DNA of 64,000 nt, from the NCBI GenBank assembly GCA_963575715.1, contig CAUYTW010000222.1, forward strand, positions 1 to 64,000, given 5' to 3'. The notes under the pieces were generated by a model, which saw only the letters and a list, made by a program, of their open reading frames with translations, was not told the DNA's origin and did not search any database. This DNA comes from Gammaproteobacteria bacterium (lineage in GTDB: Bacteria; Pseudomonadota; Gammaproteobacteria; CAIRSR01). Made by a program: the position numbers and the translations under genes. Of the stretch, positions 3,074 to 60,702 are shown piece after piece; position 1 is the stretch's first letter; each line of letters starts with the position of its first letter.

Positions 3074-3190
3074 GCACGGTATGCGACGGAATTTTTGCCA
3101 GCCATCAAGATCACGCTAATTTTTTCAGCTAGATTGATTCCCGCGAATAATCCACGCGGGATCTATTCAGGAAAAAATTGTACGGCCTAT

Positions 3191-3289
3191 TACGGGCTGA
3201 CCGCCGGGAAAGACCGGCATTTTTTAGACGGTTGCAAAACCGTTTCCTTTTCTCTCAGCCCTCACGGGCGAGGTTTCTCGGAGACACTG
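3191..3289 (+). mobile_element. HEARO/IscB-type element 3' part, ending at the start codon of the next gene
   Basis: It contains ACGGGCTGACCGCCGGG followed by AAAGACCGGC (hairpin), then ACGGTTGCAAAACCGT (hairpin), then CCCTCACGGGCGAGGTTTCT and CGGAGACACTG. The next four bases are ATGA (3290-3293). The same modules in the same order occur in the fuller element at 15863-16201. GGAG lies six bases before the ATG and can act as Shine-Dalgarno sequence for the gene at 3290. Sequence from about 3100 to 3190 may be a decayed 5' part of the element, but I see no clear match there. Confidence 0.75.
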
Positions 3290-3796
3290 ATGATAAAAAA
3301 TAAAGTTATTACCAATTTTCTTTGCGTTGCCACTTTACTTACCCATCAGAGTGTAGTTAGGGCGGATGACAATGACCAGGATCAGAAGCAAAAATGCAAT
3401 AACTGCGGGGTCGTAACTGCTATACAGATACGAGAAAGTAGCGGTGGACCTGGCTTGGGAGCCGCTGCTGGGGCACTGGCGGGTGGATTGCTAGGAAATC
3501 AAGCTGGAAAAAGCGATGCGGTCTCGAATACTGTTGGCGGAACCGCAGCCGCTATCATTGGTGCGGCAGGTGGTGCTCTCACCGGCCATTACGCAGAAAA
3601 AGCCATGAGTGACACCAAGGAATGGAATGTTACCGTGCGAATGAATAACGGCGAAACCAACACGGTCACGATGAAATCTGATCCCAATGTACAAACTGGC
3701 GACCAGGTACGCGTGGCTGGCGGAGCGTTAGTTCGCCTTCAGGAAGCGACGAGAACAAAAGAAAAAGAATTGGATGATGATGAAAAAGATGAGTAA
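3290..3796 (+). CDS. Glycine-zipper 2TM outer-membrane-type protein
   Basis: The protein has 168 residues. A signal peptide covers residues 1-23 (cleavage after VVRA). The mature part has a CNNCGVV segment and then a glycine zipper (GLGAAAGALAGGLLGNQAGK, then GGTAAAIIGAAGGALTG), as in 17-kDa-antigen/SlyB-like proteins. A soluble beta-like tail and an acidic end (DDDEKDE) follow. Such proteins sit in the outer membrane or periplasm and affect envelope integrity. An upstream in-frame extension exists, but the ATG at 3290 directly follows the GGAG of the element right end and places the signal peptide at the N-terminus, so I chose it. The leader, and probably the ribosome binding site, come from the element. 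Confidence 0.8.
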   Translation: MIKNKVITNFLCVATLLTHQSVVRADDNDQDQKQKCNNCGVVTAIQIRESSGGPGLGAAAGALAGGLLGNQAGKSDAVSNTVGGTAAAIIGAAGGALTGHYAEKAMSDTKEWNVTVRMNNGETNTVTMKSDPNVQTGDQVRVAGGALVRLQEATRTKEKELDDDEKDE

Positions 3797-13497: not shown

Positions 13498-15444
13498 ATG
13501 GCAATAACGAAAGAAGAAATGGGCAGTCAAATCAAGAATTTTACCTTCCGTCGTTTCAAAGATGGCGATAGCCAATGGCACCGCATGACCGATCGCATCT
13601 TTATTGGCGATAAGTCGCACAAGTGTCCCACTTATGTCCATCGGACTCCACCGTGCCAGGGTAGCTGCCCCGCCGGAGAGGATATCCGCGGTTGGCTTGA
13701 CATTGTACGTGGGCTTGAAAAGCCGCCCAAGGGCATGACCATGCAGGAATATGCCTTTCGTCGTTCAACCAATGCCAATCCGTTTCCTTCCGTGATGGGA
13801 CGGGTTTGCCCTGCTCCATGCGAGGATGGATGTAACCGCAATCAACTTGAAGACCACGTTGGCATTAATTCTGTTGAACAGTATATCGGTGATGCTGCTC
13901 TGAAGGCGGGTTTCAAATTTACTGCCGGTCCTGATACGGGTAAGCGTGTCGCTATCGTCGGTGGTGGTCCGGCTGGATTGGCAGCGGCCTATCAGCTTCG
14001 TCGTCGTGGCCACGCCTGTACGATTTTTGATGAACACTCCCAGTTGGGTGGGATGATGATGTGGGGTATCCCGGGTTACCGAATGCCCCGCGATATTCTT
14101 ATGGGTGAAATCAATCGCATTGTCGAAATGGGTGTGGATGTTCGTCTTAATACGCGGGTGGGGAGTGATATCCCGTTGGCTGATGTGGAGCGCGATTACG
14201 ACGCCATTTTGTTAGCCATCGGTGCGCAGAGTGGTCAAGCTCTGCCAATTCCTGGATCAGACGCACCTAACTGCCTAAGTGGAGTTGCTTTTCTGGATGC
14301 GTTTAATGATGGACGCTTGAAAGCGGTAACCGGTCGGGTGATCGTGATTGGCGGTGGTGATACTTCCGTCGACGTTGCGACCGTGGCCCGTCGTCTAGGA
14401 CGCATTACGGCAATCCACGAAAAGGATCGTCCTGAGCATATCATCATCAATCAGACCGCACACGATGTCATTGAAACTGCTGCTCGTCAGGGTGCAGATG
14501 TCCTGCTTCTTTCGCGTTCACCAATTCATAAGATGAATGCTGCCAAGCATGAGGTCGAGGACGCTCTGCGTGAGGGCGTGGAAATCCAGGGTAGCGTCGG
14601 GCCAATCGAGGTAATTAAGGGGCCGGATGGTCGTGCCACGCATTTGCGGGTTCATCGGTTGACAGAGAAAACTAAGACACCTATTCCAAATACTGAAATG
14701 GATTTGGAATGTGACATTATCGTCGCCGCCATCGGTCAGGGGGGAAATCTTGCGGGGATGGAATCCTTTAATAACGGTCGTGGACTCATTAATACCGACC
14801 GTCATTTTCAAATACCGAATCGGCGTGGTTATTTTGCAGTTGGCGATATTGTCAAGCCTCATTTGCTTACTACGGTTATTGGTCAAGCCACGGTGGCAGT
14901 GGAATCCATCGAAAAGTATTTAGCTGGTACCGATCTGGGCAAGCGCCCCAAGGTGGACGTGCGCCACTTCGACCTCATGACCAAACTTCAAGAAGCGGGT
15001 TTACAACCCGATGAGTATAATCATGAGCAGGTATGGGGAACTTCGGAGTCTAAATTTGCGGTTCATAACTACGAGGACCGTGCAACACAGGAAATTGTTT
15101 CGGCGGATATGTTATTTCTTGGACATTTCAAGTACACGGAACGTAATAAGCGCGGCTACCATAACGTAGACAGTACTAACGTTATCGGTAATTTCATGGA
15201 GCGCATGATTCCTCTCACCGAACCATTGGTGGTGGAAGAGGCCAAACGCTGTATGAGTTGTGGCATGTGTTTTGAGTGTGATAACTGTGTGATCTTTTGC
15301 CCGCAGGAAGCAGTTAAGAAGACACCCAAGAATCAATCGACAACTGGCCGTTATGTCTACACTGATTATGCTCGATGCATCGGTTGTCATATTTGTGCTG
15401 AAGTTTGTCCTACCGGGTACATCCAGATGGGAATGGGCGAGTGA
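13498..15444 (+). CDS. dsrL: DsrL, iron-sulfur flavoprotein NAD(P)H:acceptor oxidoreductase
   Basis: The protein has 648 residues. It is a cytoplasmic GltD-like flavoprotein that interacts with DsrAB in sulfur oxidisers and couples them to NAD(P). Seen: N-terminal cysteine cluster (CPTYVHRTPPCQGSC and CPAPCEDGC), FAD-binding GGGPAGLAAA, NAD(P)-binding GGGDTSVDVATVARR, and C-terminal ferredoxin motifs CMSCGMCFECDNC and CIGCHICAEVC. GGTGGAGG precedes the ATG. Its stop overlaps the dsrJ start (TGATG). Confidence 0.95.
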   Translation: MAITKEEMGSQIKNFTFRRFKDGDSQWHRMTDRIFIGDKSHKCPTYVHRTPPCQGSCPAGEDIRGWLDIVRGLEKPPKGMTMQEYAFRRSTNANPFPSVMGRVCPAPCEDGCNRNQLEDHVGINSVEQYIGDAALKAGFKFTAGPDTGKRVAIVGGGPAGLAAAYQLRRRGHACTIFDEHSQLGGMMMWGIPGYRMPRDILMGEINRIVEMGVDVRLNTRVGSDIPLADVERDYDAILLAIGAQSGQALPIPGSDAPNCLSGVAFLDAFNDGRLKAVTGRVIVIGGGDTSVDVATVARRLGRITAIHEKDRPEHIIINQTAHDVIETAARQGADVLLLSRSPIHKMNAAKHEVEDALREGVEIQGSVGPIEVIKGPDGRATHLRVHRLTEKTKTPIPNTEMDLECDIIVAAIGQGGNLAGMESFNNGRGLINTDRHFQIPNRRGYFAVGDIVKPHLLTTVIGQATVAVESIEKYLAGTDLGKRPKVDVRHFDLMTKLQEAGLQPDEYNHEQVWGTSESKFAVHNYEDRATQEIVSADMLFLGHFKYTERNKRGYHNVDSTNVIGNFMERMIPLTEPLVVEEAKRCMSCGMCFECDNCVIFCPQEAVKKTPKNQSTTGRYVYTDYARCIGCHICAEVCPTGYIQMGMGE

Positions 15445-15854
15445 TGGTAGGAAAAAGTATGTTGAATACTCGTTCATGGGGGTTTGGATTGTTGATGGCG
15501 GTGGTATTGTTAATCATTACTCCGTTGTCTGAAGCCTACCAGGTGCCTATTCCTACGCCTCCTAAGGGTCGTGGTGGTCAGTGTGTGGAGGATACTCAGT
15601 TCATGAGGCGCAACCACATGAATCTGATCTTTCATAAACGCGATTTGACCATGCGCCAGGGAATTCGTACTCCTACTCATAGTCTCAAGGAGTGTATCGG
15701 GTGCCATGCTGGGCAGCGGCCGGATGGTACTTATATTCCGGCCAATGATGAGGGACAGTTTTGCCAGAGTTGCCATAGTTATGTCGGTGCCCAGCCAGAT
15801 TGTTTTGAATGTCACGCTACCACGCCGGCCATTCTGCCGGCCAACCAGCCGTGA
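15444..15854 (+). CDS. dsrJ: DsrJ, triheme cytochrome c of DsrMKJOP
   Basis: The protein has 136 residues. It is a periplasmic cytochrome c anchored by an uncleaved or cleavable N-terminal segment (GFGLLMAVVLLIITPLSEA). Three heme sites are seen: CIGCH, CQSCH and CFECH. Cys in GGQCVEDTQFMRRNHM corresponds to the unusual Cys ligand known for one DsrJ heme. The start ATG overlaps the dsrL stop as TGATG; a second ATG at 15459 with GGTAGGA in front is an alternative. dsrO follows only after a 345-base gap filled by a structured RNA element. Confidence 0.94.
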   Translation: MVGKSMLNTRSWGFGLLMAVVLLIITPLSEAYQVPIPTPPKGRGGQCVEDTQFMRRNHMNLIFHKRDLTMRQGIRTPTHSLKECIGCHAGQRPDGTYIPANDEGQFCQSCHSYVGAQPDCFECHATTPAILPANQP

Positions 15855-15862
15855 GCATAGCG

Positions 15863-16201
15863 GTAAATCACCCCACGGCTAAAAGCCGAGGGCTTTAATA
15901 AAATAAAGCTTGATTTACCAGCTTGAGTCCAAAACATCGGACTACGTTGCAACGAAGTACAAGATTCACCTACGAATGATTCCTCAGTTCGTAGCTCTGA
16001 AAGCGGCAGTTGCAAAGTTCGCAAGAACCGAAGCTGCGCTGCAATATTGACGAGGGGAGCCACACCGCAAGGTGTATGTTACCAAGCCCGTAAGGGCTGA
16101 CAGCCGGGAAAGACCGGCTTTTTTGACTGACGGTTTTTCCCGCTAAAACCGTCTCCTTTCCTCCCTGCCCGGCTAAAGCAGGGGGTATCTCGGATACAAT
16201 G
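15863..16201 (+). ncRNA. Standalone HEARO/omega-RNA-like structured element between dsrJ and dsrO
   Basis: This structured stretch of about 339 bases has no ORF and ends at ATGA (16202-16205), the start of dsrO. GGTAAATC (15862-15869) pairs with GATTTACC (15912-15919); the copy at 60247 has GTCAATC and GATTGAC, so an A-T pair is replaced by C-G. Inside, CGGCtaaaaGCCG matches GCCCtaaaGGGC there, and GTCC/GGAC matches TTCG/CGAA. ACTACGTTGCAACGAAGTA is identical in both. Further 3' come GCCCgtaaGGGC, GCCGGgaaagaCCGGC, an ACGGTTTT/AAAACCGT hairpin and CTGCCCGGCTAAAGCAGG. The copy at 60247 is joined to IscB coding sequence, which identifies the family. HEARO RNAs are known to lie next to iscB and to sit in front of ATGA or GTGA. 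No nuclease gene accompanies this copy. Confidence 0.8.
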
Positions 16202-16939
16202 ATGAAGAATGAACTTACTGACCAAGGCCGGCGTGGCTTTCTTGGTACTGCGACGACCACTGTGGTTGGCCTCGCTGCCGTTCCCGGCCTTTCCCTGGTG
16301 GCTTTTGCCCGTTCTCCAGATGTCCCCGTAGATGATAAGTCGCGGTGGGGTATATTAATTGATGCGAATAAATGCAAGTCGGACTGTACAGCTTGCGTCA
16401 CTGCCTGCAACACTGAAAATGGTCTTACGGGTCACGGTCGTCCTACTAGTGATGCGCAGTGGCTACGTAAGGTTCAATTAAAAGATAAGTCTACGGGGCG
16501 GATTTTATCTTTACCCGTGGGCTGTCAACATTGTGAAAAACCACCTTGCGTAGATGTTTGTCCGACGGGTGCATCTTTCAAACGAGCCGATGGCATTGTT
16601 TTGGTCGATAAGCATATTTGTATTGGTTGTCGATATTGCATGATGGCTTGCCCCTATAAAGCTCGTTCCTTTGGTCACGAGGAGAAGCATGATCAGAATC
16701 CACACTCCCCACGAGGCAAGGGAACTGTTGAGGCGTGTACTCTATGCGTCCATCGCGTTGATGCTGGTCAACTACCATCCTGTGTAGATGCCTGTCAAAA
16801 AATAGGACACCAGGCGATGATTTTTGGGGATCTTAAAGACCCTAACAGTGATATTGCTAAACGTCTTGCCAATGAGTCGAGCCGGCAATTACGCGAGGTT
16901 TTGAATTTAAATACCGCTGTTCGTTATCATGGGATGTAG
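16202..16939 (+). CDS. dsrO: DsrO, periplasmic iron-sulfur subunit of DsrMKJOP
   Basis: The protein has 245 residues. A Tat signal is present (QGRRGFLGTATTTVVGLAA). Four ferredoxin-like cysteine motifs follow (CKSDCTACVTAC; CQHCEKPPCVDVC; CIGCRYCMMAC; CTLCVHRVDAGQLPSC), as in DsrO, HybA and similar electron-transfer subunits. It passes electrons between DsrJ and DsrP. Two ATGs are adjacent (16199 and 16202); I chose the second because it lies at the element's ATGA boundary. The expected ribosome binding site is weak (GGATACAATG), so expression may depend on the RNA element upstream. Confidence 0.93.
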   Translation: MKNELTDQGRRGFLGTATTTVVGLAAVPGLSLVAFARSPDVPVDDKSRWGILIDANKCKSDCTACVTACNTENGLTGHGRPTSDAQWLRKVQLKDKSTGRILSLPVGCQHCEKPPCVDVCPTGASFKRADGIVLVDKHICIGCRYCMMACPYKARSFGHEEKHDQNPHSPRGKGTVEACTLCVHRVDAGQLPSCVDACQKIGHQAMIFGDLKDPNSDIAKRLANESSRQLREVLNLNTAVRYHGM

Positions 16940-17000: not shown

Positions 17001-17123
17001 TACGGGCTGACAGCTGGGAAAGACCGGCACTTAATTCAGGCTAAAGCCATTGATTTTAACATCAAAGGCAGCGTTTCCTCCCCTCGACTTTTCGGGATCG
17101 AGGGGTTTCCATGCCGAGGATCT
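17001..17123 (+). mobile_element. HEARO/IscB-type element 3' part between dsrO and dsrP
   Basis: TACGGGCTGACAGCTGGG then AAAGACCGGC is the same module as at 16094 and 3191. A linker, a CCCCTCGA/TCGAGGGG hairpin and TTTCCATGCCGAGGATCT follow, then ATGA (17124). This is the second right-end type, also found at 5429 and 19831. GAGG lies four bases before the dsrP ATG. The 5' RNA part is missing. Confidence 0.7.
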
Positions 17124-18338
17124 ATGAAAAATATTTATTTTCGTGAAATGAAAGAAACGGGCCAGACTTACTGGTTAGTACAAGGATTACTGAGTATTTT
17201 AATTTTGTTGGCGCTTGCTGCAGCTCACCATATGGAGACAGAAGGCCATTGGGTCACAGGAATGAATAACCAGGTTGTGTGGGGACTGCCTCATGTCTTT
17301 GCTGTATTTTTAATTGTTACTGCTTCTGGAGAATTAAATCTGGCATCCATTGCCTCGGTTTTTGGTAAGGCTCCCTATAAACCATTGGCGCGTCTTTCCG
17401 CTTTAGTGGCCATTGCTCATCTGGTTGGTGGCTTAATGGTCCTGGTTTTGGATCTGGGTCGACCTGATCGCCTTATCGTAGCAATGACAAGTTATAACCT
17501 AAAGTCTATATTTACTTGGAATATTTTACTTTATAACGGATTTATCGTCTTAGCGGTAATTTATTTATGGACGATGATGGAGCGTCGTTTCAATCCTTAT
17601 ACAAAATTTGCAGGTCTTGGTGTATTTGTCTGGCGAATCATCCTTACCACCGGAACTGGTTCTATCTTCGGTTTTCTGGTTTCTCGTGATGCCTACAATG
17701 CGGCCATAATGGCACCAATGTTCATCATTATGTCATTCTCGTATGGAACCGCTATTTATCTCATGACACTTGAAACCCTTGCTTACTGGGGGAAGAGGCC
17801 AATTGGTGAGGAACTGATTACGCGTCTCAAAAATCTTTTAGGTATTTTCACAGCGGCGTCTTTCTATTTTTTCCTCGCTTATCATCTGACCAATTTATAT
17901 GGAGCACAACGCCAAGGGGTTGAATATTTTTTATTAGGAGGAGATAGCCTCTATTCAAAAATCTTTTGGATTGGACAAGTTTTCATCGGTACGATAGTTC
18001 CATTGGCCTTGCTCTATAGTCAGCTTGCTCGCTCTCGATTAGTTATCTATGGAGCTTGCATACTGGTGGTTCTTGGTGGACTTTCCCAGATGTACATCAC
18101 TATTATCGGTGGTCAGGCCTACCCAATTACCATCTTCCAAGGCTACGAAGTAAGCAGTAGCTTCTTTGATGGCCAAGTGGCAACCTATATCCCGACAGTT
18201 TACGAGGCCATGCTGGGAATTGGCGGTTTCGCTATCGCTGCCTTTATGGTGATTATGGTTACTCGTATGTTGCCATTTATTCCAAGTAGTTTGGCGGATG
18301 CGGACGTTGACGAACGTTTGATTGCTAAGGAACATTAA
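17124..18338 (+). CDS. dsrP: DsrP, NrfD-family quinone-interacting membrane subunit
   Basis: The protein has 404 residues with about ten transmembrane helices. It belongs to the NrfD/PsrC group and links the periplasmic DsrJO pair to the quinone pool. Typical parts are WGLPHVFAVFLIVTASGELN near residue 55 and VLDLGRPDRL near 112, the latter a common NrfD-family motif. The start ATG abuts an element right end; GAGGATCT serves as ribosome binding site. The first residues (MKNIYFREMKETGQTYW) match the family, so the element has not cut into the protein. Confidence 0.94.
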   Translation: MKNIYFREMKETGQTYWLVQGLLSILILLALAAAHHMETEGHWVTGMNNQVVWGLPHVFAVFLIVTASGELNLASIASVFGKAPYKPLARLSALVAIAHLVGGLMVLVLDLGRPDRLIVAMTSYNLKSIFTWNILLYNGFIVLAVIYLWTMMERRFNPYTKFAGLGVFVWRIILTTGTGSIFGFLVSRDAYNAAIMAPMFIIMSFSYGTAIYLMTLETLAYWGKRPIGEELITRLKNLLGIFTAASFYFFLAYHLTNLYGAQRQGVEYFLLGGDSLYSKIFWIGQVFIGTIVPLALLYSQLARSRLVIYGACILVVLGGLSQMYITIIGGQAYPITIFQGYEVSSSFFDGQVATYIPTVYEAMLGIGGFAIAAFMVIMVTRMLPFIPSSLADADVDERLIAKEH

Positions 18339-60246: not shown

Positions 60247-60702
60247 GTCAATCATCCGGCCCTAAAGGGCGAGGCTTGTGAAAACAAGTCCGAGATTGAC
60301 CAGCCTTATTTCGAAAAATCGAACTACGTTGCAACGAAGTAAAAGCTTGTCCTGCGTGCAGTCCAAGTTTGCAACATCGCGTCGATACAACGACGGCTTG
60401 GGTTAATCGTTTACAACAACTGGCACCAATTAGCGCCATTCTAACTCGACAAAAACGGATTAAAGGTTTTCAAACCGGCGATATGGTTAAAGCAATTGTC
60501 GAGAAATGGAAGAAAGTCGGTATTTATATTGGCCGTGTGGCGGTACGTGCAATGGATAATTTTAACATTCAGACCGCTAATGAAGTAATACAAGGTATTG
60601 GTTATCAGTATTGTAAATTTATTCAAAAAAGTGATGGTTATGGCTACGAAAACCGTCTCATTTCCTCCTCGCCCTAAAGGGCGAGGTTTTTCGGAGACAC
60701 TG
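60247..60702 (+). mobile_element. Internally deleted IscB (HEARO/ISC) transposon
   Basis: Left end: GTCAATC (60247-60253) pairs with GATTGAC (60294-60300), enclosing GCCCtaaaGGGC and CTTGTgaaaACAAG hairpins. TTCGaaaaatCGAA and ACTACGTTGCAACGAAGTA follow, matching 15920-15952 in the standalone RNA. The RNA part breaks off near 60350 and joins IscB coding sequence. Right end: AAAACCGTCTCATTTCCTCC, TCGCCCTAAAGGGCGAGG, TTTTTCGGAGACACTG, then ATGA (60703). It has one clear left and one clear right end and is the reference copy tying the relics in the window to IscB. Confidence 0.8.
60360..60677 (+). pseudogene. iscB: iscB remnant (two conserved blocks fused by deletion)
   Basis: The frame reads SPSLQHRVDTTTAWVNRL and QQLAPISAI, a block that in IscB proteins lies before the HNH domain, and then jumps to KGFQTGDMVKAIV, GRVAVRAMDNFNIQ and YCKFIQKSDGYGY, which is the C-terminal (TAM-interacting/PLMP-like) end of IscB. 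The N-terminus, HNH and last RuvC parts are missing. About 105 residues remain of a protein that is usually about 400 or more. It cannot be an active nuclease. Family recognition rests on remembered IscB sequences, not on a search. Confidence 0.75.

Follow-up and report, generated by a model that had tools for sequence, protein, structure and literature searches.

The DNA between dsrJ and dsrO in the window (the whole 64-kb stretch that was analyzed) is, with a probability of about 0.8, an omega-RNA-bearing MITE of the IS200/IS605-type IscB group, inserted immediately 5' of the ATGA with which dsrO starts. We compared this gene junction between the source genome (G000; 3.70 Mb in 363 contigs, 99.4% complete) and three relatives in the same family (G001, G002 and G003, of which G002 belongs to a different genus), and found that positions 15863-16201 of the forward strand are one precise insertion of 339 bp. 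Excision of these 339 bp rebuilds GTGAGCATAGCG/ATGAAGAATGAAC, which aligns without gaps to GTGAGGATAGCA/ATGAGCAATGAATCC of G003, and likewise to the junctions of G001 and G002. In the empty sites dsrJ and dsrO abut as GAGGACAGCA/ATGAGGAATGAACC (G001), GAGGGATCGCT/ATGAGGAACGAATG (G002) and GAGGATAGCA/ATGAGCAATGAATCC (G003), and the occupied site in the window reads GAGCATAGCG/339 bp/ATGAAGAATGAACT. Relative to these three sites, neither a target duplication nor a loss of bases was found at the dsrJ-dsrO junction. The insertion thus bears a hallmark of the IS200/IS605 type: it is precise, lacks a target-site duplication and lies beside a fixed short target (ATGA/GTGA).

The original prediction had described a stretch of about 339 bases that parts dsrJ from dsrO and ends at the dsrO start, and this interval is exactly the inserted element. 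The prediction had also named a finding that would speak against it, namely that the region is an ordinary spacer conserved in relatives; the region is absent from all three. A plain dsrJ-dsrO spacer that merely resembles HEARO is ruled out by these empty sites, and the strength of the HEARO match (E = 1.4e-17) and the 129 related copies in the genome, both described below, leave that reading practically no weight. In G003 the searches for HEARO, the RRXRR domain and Y1 transposases found nothing, and there is a single degenerate match to the hairpin of the element.

The flanking genes are those of a dsr operon. The upstream gene is called dsrJ by its position between a dsrL-like gene and dsrO (15405-15854, forward strand); it carries heme-binding CXXCH motifs, its true start lies inside the ORF, and a Pfam search of this ORF gave no match. 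The downstream gene, dsrO (16202-16939, forward strand; Pfam Fer4_11), encodes the 4Fe-4S protein of DsrMKJOP and is 78-81% identical to its orthologues in the family. The target tetranucleotide ATGA (16202-16205), seen in all three empty sites, consists of the ancestral start codon of dsrO and the base after it.

The ends of the element are shared with other copies (left end GTMAATCACC, right end ..ACAATG), as are subterminal hairpins at both ends. Between the scaffold and the right end lies a conserved hairpin (GCTGACAGCCGGGAAAGACCGGC) with a T-run, terminator-like in the dsrO copy (16096-16124), and the right end itself (16126-16201) contains two inverted repeats and reads GGATAC where many siblings have the Shine-Dalgarno-like GGAGAC. 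We propose that TnpA acting in trans moved this non-autonomous element and chose ATGA, so that the element sits at the start of dsrO because ATGA is its target.

Omega-RNA scaffold, guide position and candidate nucleases

The covariance search that the prediction had suggested gave a clear result: 15863-16065 on the forward strand matches the whole Rfam HEARO model (RF02033) with 92.7 bits, above the gathering score of 83, and this is the only Rfam hit in the 64-kb window. The predicted fold of the element strand is more stable than 100 of 100 shuffles (z = -4.8). The element is also standalone, as predicted, in that no nuclease gene adjoins it and dsrO comes straight after it. The set of model hairpins is incomplete, one being missing: the hairpin that spans positions ∼129-173 of the HEARO model is retained in the nearest full-length sibling and gone from the dsrO copy, and alignment to siblings and model indicates that the scaffold is ∼36 nt shorter than theirs.

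A related element at 60247-60702 (forward strand), made up of a degraded HEARO, an IscB trace and a right end, also stops at ATGA. Its HEARO match (60247-60394, 44.1 bits) lies under the gathering score, and its RRXRR match (60354-60458, 25.8 bits) belongs to an IscB remnant of ∼100 codons from which most of the protein is missing; the earlier description of this copy as IscB-linked is therefore right as to the trace, but what is linked is only this remnant. Compensatory changes between the two copies had been claimed for three helices, and we found pairing-preserving two-sided changes in four (P1, P2, P3 and the following hairpin).

Across 89 copies, pairing is kept at 96.5% versus 79% in shuffles, with 216 versus 78 two-sided changes, although such shuffles do not remove the relatedness of the copies. 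RNAalifold on the same 89 copies recovered 15 pairs only, since the middle aligns poorly, and was used as support only; the dsrO copy keeps 15 of these 15 pairs. As far as these alignments reach, the conservation of pairing shows selection on the RNA of the family at some time, and not on the dsrO copy now: covariation may be inherited from mobile ancestors, so that it is no proof of present use.

IscB omega-RNA guides lie immediately 5' of the scaffold. In the dsrO copy the 16 nt at this position (15847-15862, forward strand; AGCCGTGAGCATAGCG) consist of the 3' end of dsrJ, stop codon included, and 8 nt of spacer, in line with the prediction that dsrJ would provide the guide. Only its own site matches this putative guide exactly in the genome, where no second full target was found; all other matches are no better than those of a reversed control, which rules out a guide aimed elsewhere in the genome. 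A phage-directed guide was likewise rejected, the one exact viral match lacking ATGA or GTGA after it and being within chance for the size of the collection.

The search for an intact iscB, also suggested in the prediction, succeeded in part. One contig (C351) holds a complete element in the order HEARO-iscB-tnpA, whose IscB (392 aa) is the only intact one found in the source genome and aligns with solved IscB structures across the RuvC and HNH regions. This element has the right end TTTATAA and flanks that are not ATGA, and so belongs to a different subfamily from the dsrO copy. Other IscB traces are an internally deleted gene (323 aa, C62) and fragments on C61, C122, C222 and elsewhere; in this assembly the IscB relatives close to the ATGA subfamily are fragments only. 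TnpA gave three matches above the curated cut-off, two of them intact and one interrupted by a stop, and one of the three lies within the C351 element. Neither a TnpA nor an intact IscB of the exact subfamily of the dsrO copy was found in the 363-contig assembly, which breaks at repeats, so that an intact copy could be absent from it; the mobilizing enzyme is for this reason postulated.

Several of these loci have features of their own. A free-standing IS200-like tnpA (147 aa) without HEARO ends lies at 1180-1623 of contig C342, which also holds a second copy, interrupted and likewise without such ends. On C62 (locus L239, 5517-6742), the highest-scoring HEARO in the genome (166.5 bits) precedes the 323-aa IscB frame, which seems to lack in-frame RuvC-II and HNH and keeps the C-terminal part; judged by its reading frame, this IscB may be decayed or may be a nuclease-dead binder. 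At 1637-3984 of contig C187 in G001, an ATGA-type IscB gene (417 aa) is followed directly by an IS630-like transposase gene, which probably cuts its 3' end.

These data bear on a use for the element that the prediction had proposed, in which the scaffold serves an IscB in trans. An IscB from elsewhere would load a processed omega-RNA whose guide is the dsrJ 3' end, and element-free copies of the chromosome, in which guide and ATGA are reconstituted, would be cut, so that the element is kept. A scaffold above the Rfam cut-off with all 15 alifold pairs retained, the pairing held across the family and the existence of an intact IscB that has its RuvC and HNH regions speak for such a mechanism, but that IscB belongs to the TTTATAA subfamily with no ATGA neighbor, the scaffold has lost one hairpin, the covariation may date from mobile ancestors, and the genome offers the guide no further full target. 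We therefore find the proposal unsupported and consider it improbable. For an inserted MITE, the omega-RNA would now probably be a passenger, given that no cognate nuclease was found and that the scaffold lacks a hairpin, although transcription of the operon could include it, the dsrJ 3' end then serving as guide.

The dsrO leader and the dsrP start

Insertion 5' of an ATG would replace the 5' leader of the gene, and siting before start codons would be possible because the ATG is left intact. The right end of the element abuts the ancestral dsrO start at 16202, in agreement with the predicted leader position, and an additional in-frame ATG lies inside the element at 16199. Judged from the sequence, dsrO has acquired a new 5' leader. 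In all three relatives a GAGG stands six or seven bases ahead of the dsrO ATG; the displaced site in the window is GAGC, as expected if use of this old Shine-Dalgarno was lost. The element carries a Shine-Dalgarno-like GGAG of its own, mutated to GGAT in the dsrO copy. This motif is present in 16 of 33 right ends of the ACNTG type and in none of the TTTGG type, which excludes the element as a general supplier of Shine-Dalgarno sites. A consensus scan of the element found no promoter for dsrO. A terminator-like hairpin with a T-run lies at 16102-16124, but shuffles yield as many such sites (mean 0.9).

The next gene start of the operon has been used as well. The right-half remnant of a related element (17003-17123, forward strand, with a hairpin at 17006-17028) abuts the dsrP ATGA at 17124, and in G002 the dsrP start is bordered by a full HEARO whose right end is of another type; no element was found at this start in G001 or G003. 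It looks, from these borders, like independent use of the same dsrP start codon in two genera, the alternative being the replacement of an older copy.

The second role offered by the prediction was that the element had become a leader RNA controlling dsrO, with the terminator-like structure at 16102-16124 and the right-end hairpins uncoupling dsrO from dsrJ. The position of the element as the dsrO leader, the hairpin with its T-run, the altered native Shine-Dalgarno and the remnant at dsrP are all compatible with such domestication. The same hairpins, however, are common to more than 200 copies at unrelated sites and are hence transposon parts, the single terminator-like site does not exceed the number in shuffles, the element-borne GGAG is mutated in precisely this copy, and the relatives give no sign of a conserved insertion. 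We regard a domesticated leader as unlikely, and retain the inserted MITE as the preferred reading, within which guide activity in trans and regulation of dsrO are both possible.

Copy number, target motif and start-codon siting

The prediction had treated the dsrO copy as a singular case, and this was mistaken: it is one of at least 129 copies with a general siting at start codons. The whole source genome contains 129 HEARO matches, 63 of them above the curated score, which rules out a single exceptional insertion. HEARO matches number at least ∼30 each in G001 and G002, in a search that scored no more than 34 candidates per genome, and in the comparison set, 398 other genomes from the phylum, only two have any, one each. 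When up to 3 mismatches are allowed, the 23-nt hairpin GCTGACAGCCGGGAAAGACCGGC is found 213 times in G000, 73 times in G001, 52 times in G002 and once in G003, versus 0 matches to a reversed control in each of the four genomes. Three of these copies are in the window, at 3196, 16096 and 17006. The first belongs to a shortened element without HEARO (3187-3289), whose right end GGAGACACTG abuts ATGATAAAAAATAAAG at 3290, the likely start of a secreted-protein-like gene of unassigned family (ORF to 3796). Many of the G001 loci (L247-L295) have identical or near-identical ends and scores, which suggests, from the sequences, a recent burst; G000 copies, unlike these, are ∼91% identical to their nearest sibling.

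Oriented copies have a common left end (GTCAATCACC or GTAAATCACC), no shared motif was found in their left flanks, and their subfamilies are split by the right end. The four bases that follow are ATGA in 54 of 58 copies of the ..GACANTG type and in 19 of 19 of the ..ATTTGG type; for the ..GCATTTG type they are GTGA in 11 of 12. Because the right-end patterns used for these counts stop before the motif, an artefact of the patterns is ruled out. Neither the pheT start of three relatives nor the serC start of the two relatives read has an element, and both show ATGA at the border; together with the empty dsrO sites, these starts indicate that ATGA is part of the target. The transposase TnpA of IS200/IS605 elements has the TAM as its target motif (PMC11870625), and the IsrB of Desulfovirgula thermocuniculi has the TAM NTGA (PMC9581776), which both ATGA and GTGA fit. 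ATGA would then double as the TAM of the cognate IscB. This IsrB differs in that it lacks HNH, and the present motif comes from insertion sites, not from cleavage.

We analyzed siting on the fetched HEARO loci, a part of the copies in the genome. In 27 of the 55 ATGA-bordered copies whose right end was recognized, the bordering ATG opens an ORF of 100 codons or more; about half have no long ORF directly after them. In the window, which served as control, gene starts account for 19 of the 674 ATGA sites and intergenic DNA for 82. The observed 27 of 55 exceeds the 18.8% expected at starts if coding insertions were purged (p = 4e-7), an expectation drawn from this single 64-kb stretch, in which the genes were picked by hand. 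Genes of G000 with an element right before the start include pheT, serC, gltA, petA and ccoP, and copies in the sister genomes are sited in the same way. Profile alignment placed the N-termini at 1-to-1 for pheT, serC and yggS, 5-to-5 for citrate synthase (gltA), 3-to-5 for tadA and 1-to-6 for dut, and in the sister genomes it likewise gave true starts for ccoO, pdxA and feoB (G001) and for HU (G002, 1-to-1). Of the GTGA subfamily, only 1 copy in 18 sits at a gene start, which fits the scarcity of GTG as a start codon. One further HEARO element of G000 (contig C77, ∼26492) lies before an ftsZ-like start (MKFEFTDTYNQDAVIKVMGVGGG), and the frame that follows is soon broken; this may be a pseudogene, a duplicate or a sequencing error.

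Known systems and meaning

The element is like the HEARO/IscB omega-RNA (RF02033) in scaffold structure, in the guide position in the 5' flank and in its mobile context, but differs in that it is not followed by a nuclease ORF, lacks one model hairpin and is present in at least 129 copies. Altae-Tran et al. reportedly described standalone omega-RNAs in Ktedonobacter racemifer in 2021; that case is similar in having many scaffolds without an adjacent IscB and few IscB genes, whereas here the number is larger, the cognate nuclease of this subfamily has apparently been lost, and copies are sited systematically at the start codons of housekeeping genes. Non-autonomous IS200/IS605 derivatives (MITE/PATE) are likewise short, without a transposase, with subterminal hairpins and precise, duplication-free insertion; the present element, in contrast, carries the scaffold of a nuclease guide RNA and has ATGA or GTGA at its right border. 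A 2009 report on HEARO is said perhaps to have named ATGA/GTGA as the integration motif already. Standalone omega-RNAs are thus a known kind, and it is the scale and the start-codon siting that look new.

RNA-guided transposon nucleases such as IscB are the ancestors of Cas9, and to our knowledge the natural role of many orphan guide RNAs has been little tested. The present lineage of sulfur bacteria has more than 100 orphan omega-RNA elements, with about half of the analyzed ATGA-ended ones at gene starts, and identical genes with and without an element in close relatives provide natural test sites. Siting at gene starts would explain how such elements can multiply in a compact genome while doing limited damage, and how they might turn into gene leaders. 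Much more tentatively than for the insertion itself, we suggest that a transposon family with the start codon itself as its target and TAM motif has replaced the leaders of dozens of housekeeping genes in three or more genomes of a single bacterial family, and that it entered the same operon repeatedly and independently, at dsrO and dsrP here and at dsrP in a second genus, with omega-RNA guides that record the ends of the upstream genes. If this is true, an RNA-guided transposon would act as a genome-wide remodeller of 5' leaders that tolerates, or even exploits, insertion before essential genes.
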